From contig CALLXD010000034.1 in the NCBI GenBank assembly GCA_937766455.1, positions 39,354 to 103,353 on the forward strand: 64,000 bases of DNA, in the 5' to 3' direction. Numbering within the stretch: the stretch's first letter is position 1; each line of letters begins with the position of its first letter. Made by a program: the position numbers and the translations under genes. Under the pieces are notes generated by a model, which did no database searches, had not been told where the DNA came from, and was given only the letters and a program-made list of their open reading frames with translations. Positions 4,388 through 4,852 of the stretch are shown here, piece by piece. The DNA comes from Vicinamibacterales bacterium (lineage in GTDB: Bacteria > Acidobacteriota > Vicinamibacteria > Vicinamibacterales > UBA8438).

Positions 4388-4852
4388 ATGTCCGAGGTAG
4401 TGCATACGAGTCGAATGCGCGTCGAGCGGGTGGCTGGTCCCCTGCGACATGCGTATCTGGAGGGGTTCGAGGAGCCGATGCGATTCGGCGTTCACGGCGG
4501 TATCAAGAAATTCTACGGGGTTGAACCTGAGGAGGATGTGCCGGCCACATTGGACTACATGGTCGGCGCGGTCGGCGGTTGACTGCTCGGCACCTTGGCA
4601 CGCGCACTGGAGGTGCGCGACATTCCGGTCCCGAGAGAGAACCTGCAGGCTGCCGTCGAAGGTGACATTGAAGCGGTCGACAAGGTCCTACGTATTACCC
4701 GCATTCGTGTCCGCTATCGCATCCGGATTCCGGCCGGGACGCGGGAGAAAGCGGAACGCGCCGTGGCCACCCATCCGACGAAGTGTCCGGCCGCGAACAG
4801 CATCCGCGGCTGTATCGACTTGGATATCTCGGCCGACATCACCGAGGAGTAG
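4388..4852 (+). CDS. Predicted selenocysteine-containing OsmC-family peroxiredoxin (TGA at 4580-4582 = Sec65)
   Basis: 64 codons ending MVGAVGG, in-frame TGA, then LLGTLARALEV...HPTKCPAANSIRGCIDLDISADITEE and TAG. TGA falls at the conserved OsmC catalytic Cys; second conserved Cys (KCP) is present. SD-like AAGGAGGTG at 4377-4385. Confidence 0.85.
4601..4619 (+). promoter_or_regulatory. Candidate bacterial SECIS hairpin for OsmC TGA
   Basis: CGCGCAC-TGGAG-GTGCGCG: perfect 7-bp stem, 5-nt loop with G at position 2; 25 nt between TGA and loop. Confidence 0.72.

Follow-up and report, generated by a model that had tools for sequence, protein, structure and literature searches.

The gene at positions 4388..4852 (+) of the window, by which we mean the whole 64,000-nucleotide stretch that was analysed, encodes a small predicted selenoprotein of the OsmC fold, presumably a stress-defence enzyme, in which UGA 4580-4582 is read as selenocysteine (Sec). 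We put the probability of this reading at about 0.95. Re-reading of the sequence confirmed the single frame described in an earlier note on this DNA. It runs from ATG 4388 to TAG 4850-4852 and comprises 154 residues, with one in-frame TGA (4580..4582, +) as codon 65. A Shine-Dalgarno-like AAGGAGG (4377..4383, +) can be read 4 nt upstream of the ATG. The Pfam OsmC match (PF02566) runs across the TGA (2.5e-13, 50.7 bits against a gathering cut-off of 27.5). The claim of the earlier note that the TGA is recoded to Sec is supported by the conservation of the TGA, the Cys homologues, a SECIS-type hairpin and the Sec machinery described below, and from these sequences we infer actual Sec insertion at residue 65. 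In each computational test that could be applied, the gene qualified as that of a selenoprotein.

The AlphaFold model consists of one confident OsmC domain with a mean pLDDT of 96.8. Residue 65 is located within the central helix (residues 54-76), and Cys133 lies just ahead of the next short helix. The best matches in the PDB were OsmC/Ohr proteins (2onf, 6mjn, 4mh4, and Ohr of several bacteria) with TM values of 0.62-0.76, while the identity to the closest described or solved OsmC/Ohr proteins was only 12-19%. In a profile alignment with Thermus OsmC (1ukk), residue 65 corresponds to the catalytic Cys and the CP of the KCP motif to the second CP; residue 65 also aligns with the Cys of 2onf. 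The TGA thus occupies the place of the catalytic Cys of OsmC, as had been proposed, and the second redox Cys reported as intact is Cys133 (codon 4784..4786, +). This presumed second redox residue is kept in the database relatives, being present in 30/31 full-length Cys-type and 84/85 "Trp"-type sequences.

The codon at the position of residue 65 was TGA in 144/144 homologous DNA loci that cover it (131 distinct sequences), and TGG, TGC or TGT was found in none. Three sources supplied the loci: 100 relatives, a draw across the phylum, and 80 named genome records. Every full-length strong match in the 100 relatives contains exactly one TGA, at the identical codon, and the 34 full-length matches (E <= 1e-12) from the 396 genomes of the phylum draw all contain one TGA. 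In a scan of 85,488 species genomes, 250 relatives were found, and the best 80 of the 250 were read. The scan did not favour TGA: of the two peptide patterns used, one avoids the position and the other requires Cys or Trp there, and in the ranking query (P0139) the residue is given as Cys. The best 80 of the 250 belong mainly to Acidobacteriota (55), Gemmatimonadota (9), Chloroflexota (3), Myxococcota (3), Calditrichota (2), and Actinomycetota (2), the rest being Poribacteria, Thermodesulfobacteriota, and four unassigned records. The subfamily, with TGA-bearing relatives in at least eight bacterial phyla, extends beyond Acidobacteriota to seven or more others. Two of the TGA-bearing loci come from named strains, L137 from Geobacter argillaceus ATCC BAA-1139 and L141 from Haloechinothrix halophila YIM 93223. 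The rest of the protein is 41-95% identical among the TGA-bearing relatives. The occurrence of the TGA in register in all 144 loci indicates that it is not due to chance, and Sec would be the rule of the whole OsmC subfamily rather than an isolated oddity. One locus (L054, G005:C57) keeps the TGA with its N-terminal part in another frame, which is a frameshift, either real or of the assembly.

A perfect 7-bp hairpin with a TGGAG loop had been noticed at 4601-4619, starting 18 nt past the TGA. The hairpin (4601..4619, +; stem CGCGCAC/GTGCGCG) was recovered as part of the minimum free energy (MFE) fold, and it fits the published model of bacterial SECIS elements. This model specifies a loop of 3-9 nt, a stem of 4-16 bp, a G in the first two loop positions, a distance of 16-37 nt from the UGA, and an MFE of <= -7.5 (PMC13188914); the hairpin of the window has a stem of 7-8 bp, a loop of GGA or TGGAG, and a distance of 25-26 nt from the UGA, and the fold energy is -15.8 kcal/mol for 45 nt. 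By a counting criterion in the spirit of the published model, a SECIS-like structure was found behind the TGA in 119/131 distinct sequences, as compared with 2-19/131 for control windows elsewhere in the same genes and 94/800 for random TGAs of the window. Six stem pairs are standard in 95-99% of the 131 distinct sequences, with exchanges between G-C (96) and A-T (32) at one pair and between C-G (120) and T-A (6) at another. The loop begins with T-G-G in 130/131. Rfam, whether or not its families include a bacterial SECIS model, gave no match in the window at its gathering threshold.

Codon usage within the hairpin is constrained. The Ala codon in the stem is GCG or GCA in 125/125 sequences and never GCC or GCT, whereas GCC or GCT accounts for 69/118 at the Ala codon 12 nt upstream of the TGA. 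The Leu codon of the loop is CTG in 129/131. On the tree, 3 changes fall on the third base of the stem Ala codon, as compared with 24-28 for the third bases of other codons, and the synonymous choice in the hairpin is frozen. Compensatory changes in the stem amount to about 2, 2 and 1 events, with no pair in the wrong direction. A phylogeny-aware covariation test of the stem did not reach significance with so few independent events, and covariation alone would therefore not prove the stem. In L072, L073, L074, and L076 (family f69), the stem bases GCG..GCG are replaced by GTG..GCA, which changes Ala to Val in the protein and keeps the base pair; here the choice of amino acid seems to follow the needs of the RNA structure. 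Four loci (L064, L065, L084, and L137) are without the standard stem, and each can form another hairpin. In G. argillaceus (L137, 4001-4465), a culture-collection strain, the TGA is present, the standard stem is absent, and a hairpin is predicted elsewhere (CCTTCGGCGGTGCGCTGGAGG).

The metagenome-assembled genome (MAG) from which the window originates is of acidobacterial type, has a size of 3.45 Mb and is 85% complete; judging from hit names, its relatives are mostly Acidobacteriota and Vicinamibacterales-like. The earlier note had proposed a search of this genome for the Sec machinery, and all components were found: selA (534 bits), selB (345 bits), selD (291 bits), and a tRNA-Sec (66.6 bits against a gathering score of 47) with the anticodon UCA, which ARAGORN designated tRNA-Sec(tca). 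A formate dehydrogenase alpha gene (G000:C6:21604-24582; 1345 bits) in the same MAG contains a single in-frame TGA in "RIUHSPTV", a classic UHxP motif. This unrelated enzyme, which likewise uses UGA recoding through the Sec machinery, serves as an internal control. Taken together, these genes indicate that the organism has a complete Sec pathway and at least one further textbook selenoprotein gene. Within the order (100 relatives), SelB was not significantly associated with the OsmC gene (30/38 versus 45/61, p = 0.37) because SelB is nearly universal in those relatives, being present in most of the genomes anyway. No selB was found in five gene-bearing MAGs even when fragments were counted, and three of them are less than 75% complete. 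The other two are G058 (97% complete) and G027 (99% complete). Since G027 is 10% contaminated and the genus relatives of G058 (G075, G082, and G099) carry selB, the simplest reading of both cases is an assembly gap.

In protein databases (5.8 billion proteins searched), the homologues are mainly C-terminal halves of ~85 residues and N-terminal halves of ~90 residues cut at the UGA (P0004-P0008 and P0020-P0047). One of the C-terminal halves, P0007, is 94% identical to the window protein and is labelled Ilumatobacter sp. (Actinomycetota), which reflects either a mis-binned contig or a transfer. In the 131 full-length database relatives, the residue at the position is Trp in 85, Cys in 31 (query included), Gly in 8, and Leu, Ser or Arg in the others. 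The Trp records are most likely TGA codons translated by code 4, because no DNA locus has TGG, and the Gly records may be TGA translated by code 25. Four full-length records in which Ser, Arg or Leu takes the place of Sec (P0185, P0195, P0198, and P0217) are each one base from TGA and represent errors or true losses.

The alignment of homologues at residue 65 that had been suggested earlier gave TGA in the DNA and Cys in P0003 (68% identical), P0011, and P0194 (Tenacibaculum ovolyticum). In total, 30 database proteins have Cys at the UGA position. Cys is known here from protein records and not from DNA, and a U-bearing record may be stored as C, so that a lone record found only at NCBI, such as P0139, is uncertain. 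With this caution, the Cys records would supply the Sec/Cys pairs by which a selenoprotein family is defined. When 131 Sec and 30 Cys sequences were placed on one tree, the Cys forms were interleaved with the Sec forms; the label changes 16 times, and at least 8 of these changes are forced by supported branches. Most sequences have Sec in each of the two main clades. This suggests a mostly derived origin of the Cys forms, although an unrooted tree is no proof. It is reasonably likely that Sec is ancestral and the normal catalytic residue of the whole OsmC subfamily, with the Cys forms as repeatedly derived replacements.

Other explanations of the TGA were considered. A nonsense mutation or base-call error could have replaced the Cys codon of an ordinary OsmC gene; the window comes from a MAG, and a transketolase-like coding sequence in it does look disrupted. 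The TGA, however, recurs in all of the independently assembled loci, which excludes a sequencing error. The protein is otherwise kept at the identities given above, a dead gene would not hold its frame across such distances, and synonymous sites in the downstream hairpin are conserved. We regard the chance of a pseudogene or an error as negligible. The gene callers list the two halves of the protein, as if the TGA were a true stop and the C-terminal half restarted at TTG 4595 to give two small proteins. This arrangement is hardly credible: the fold needs both halves, with the TGA inside the central helix of a single high-confidence domain, full-length Cys homologues exist, and the conserved SECIS-type hairpin would have no reason.

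The UGA might instead be read as Trp, through a recoded genome (code 4) or a suppressor tRNA, in which case the 85 Trp records, the majority of the full-length database relatives, would be literally right. Against this stand the absence of TGG from the 144 DNA loci (the DNA behind the Trp records is outside that count) and the use of TGA as an ordinary stop here, with 5/9 of the window genes checked ending in TGA. Moreover, the Trp records come mostly from short metagenome contigs, for which gene callers may pick code 4, and Trp at the catalytic Cys position would provide no redox chemistry. Decoding as Sec agrees with the Cys relatives, with the SECIS hairpin, and with the Sec machinery, and decoding as Trp is very improbable.

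An OsmC-like selenoprotein is known from the Sargasso Sea and GOS metagenomes (3 and 5 sequences; PMC1088965, PMC2398784). Its published entry reads "OsmC-like protein, PF02566, UxxT" (PMC13188914), and it is the one OsmC entry in a 2026 inventory of 119 prokaryotic selenoprotein families and subfamilies. The earlier statement that Sec-containing OsmC-like proteins had been reported is correct (Sargasso Sea 2005; NCBIfam NF041052), and the window protein lies outside NF041052. The Sargasso/GOS form shares with it the OsmC domain, Sec at the catalytic position, a downstream SECIS, and Cys homologues. The two differ, as compared by the published motif, in that the Sargasso/GOS form has UxxT with Thr at U+3, whereas the window group has U-x-x-G-T with Gly at U+3 in 144/144 and Thr at U+4. 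NF041052 (OsmC_like_Se) belongs to the same superfamily and aligned over the C-terminal two thirds, but the window protein scored 25.9 bits, below the cut-off of 95 bits. Ten other members gave 18.0-27.5 bits for three and no listed match for the rest against the same cut-off. A scan of the phylum with NF041052 produced one match above the cut-off in 297 genomes, and this match is without TGA. The scores against the equivalogs TIGR03561, TIGR03562, and TIGR03563 were 16.9, 17.8, and 22.1 bits, respectively, versus cut-offs of 88.85, 85.8, and 166.15, and no NCBIfam OsmC/Ohr subfamily was reached by the window group. Because the cut-off of NF041052 was missed, UxxT was absent, and no NCBIfam subfamily matched, the group was filed as a putative new Sec-dominated OsmC subfamily (U-x-x-G-T), the Sargasso form being set apart by its published motif in the part of the literature covered. 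Acidobacteriota also contain a second type of OsmC, closer to the classical form, whose genes have an in-frame TGA in place of the catalytic Cys codon (L191:201-569, -; L192:201-575, +). The peptides around its TGA are GTUTSITVALYARRK and GAUTSMTIALYARRK, respectively, and this type is possibly another Sec-OsmC subfamily.

In the proposed mechanism, Sec would be made by SelA and SelD, and SelB with Sec-tRNA-Sec would bind the hairpin at 4601-4619 just downstream of the UGA as the ribosome reads UGA 4580-4582 as Sec. Sec65 would then replace the catalytic (peroxidatic) Cys of OsmC/Ohr proteins, with Cys133 as the resolving residue. The most likely reaction would be the reduction of peroxides or organic hydroperoxides through a selenol, selenenic acid, and selenenylsulfide (Sec65-Cys133) cycle, and the enzyme would be re-reduced by a dithiol donor, for which the neighbouring thioredoxin-like DUF255 protein is a candidate partner. 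The alignment of residue 65 and Cys133 with the Cys pair of 1ukk makes peroxide reduction by Sec65 and resolution by Cys133 likely, since thiol peroxidases of this fold would be expected to have their redox residues at these positions. The Ohr/OsmC hydroperoxide reductases (1qwi, 1nye, 1n2f, and 6ebg) share the fold (TM up to 0.73) and the two redox positions; they differ in identity (12-16%), in Sec for the peroxidatic Cys, and in that the window protein scores under their family cut-offs. The name "selenocysteine OsmC peroxidase" given in the earlier note is accordingly supported for Sec and the OsmC fold, while "peroxidase" is suggested by the fold. By this analogy, peroxidase activity is somewhat favoured. 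That the protein is a Sec enzyme of the OsmC fold acting on another electrophile or on sulfur or selenium compounds is a serious possibility, though of less than even odds, given its distance from the NCBIfam subfamilies and from the solved structures.

The OsmC gene of the window stands alone. On one side is a divergent PLP-dependent decarboxylase gene (Pyridoxal_deC, 2782..4308, -; Pfam 2.8e-95), which lies outside the element and is beside the OsmC gene in 29/64 loci. On the other side, a DUF4149 gene (4865..5362, -; Pfam 1.6e-06; 7/64 loci, close relatives only) is followed by a recurrent DUF255/thioredoxin-like gene (5249..6520, +; Pfam Thioredox_DsbH 2.5e-20; 22/64 loci), the true start of which is probably at about 5.4 kb. 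The thioredoxin-like gene has the same orientation as the OsmC gene and in some loci follows the OsmC stop at a distance of up to about 30 bp. A functional link between these two genes is a suggestion only.

Nearly all members of the group are mis-annotated today, as they are either halved at the UGA or given Trp. An overwhelmingly Sec family of this kind escapes proteomics as well as Cys/Sec-pair searches that set out from abundant Cys proteins. It adds a putative peroxidase-type selenoprotein to phyla with very few recorded; a 2006 survey listed 3 families and 4 selenoproteins for Acidobacteria (PMC1794560). If Sec is indeed ancestral, few unannotated selenoprotein families would be more widespread than this group in soil and marine Acidobacteriota and their neighbours. 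As G. argillaceus and H. halophila are named strains, the prediction is directly testable in them. Elsewhere in the window, the transketolase-like coding sequence at 7032-8943 (~7.0-8.9 kb) is spread over three frames, as after two indels. It represents assembly errors or a decaying gene and is probably the "indel-type disruption" meant by the earlier note.
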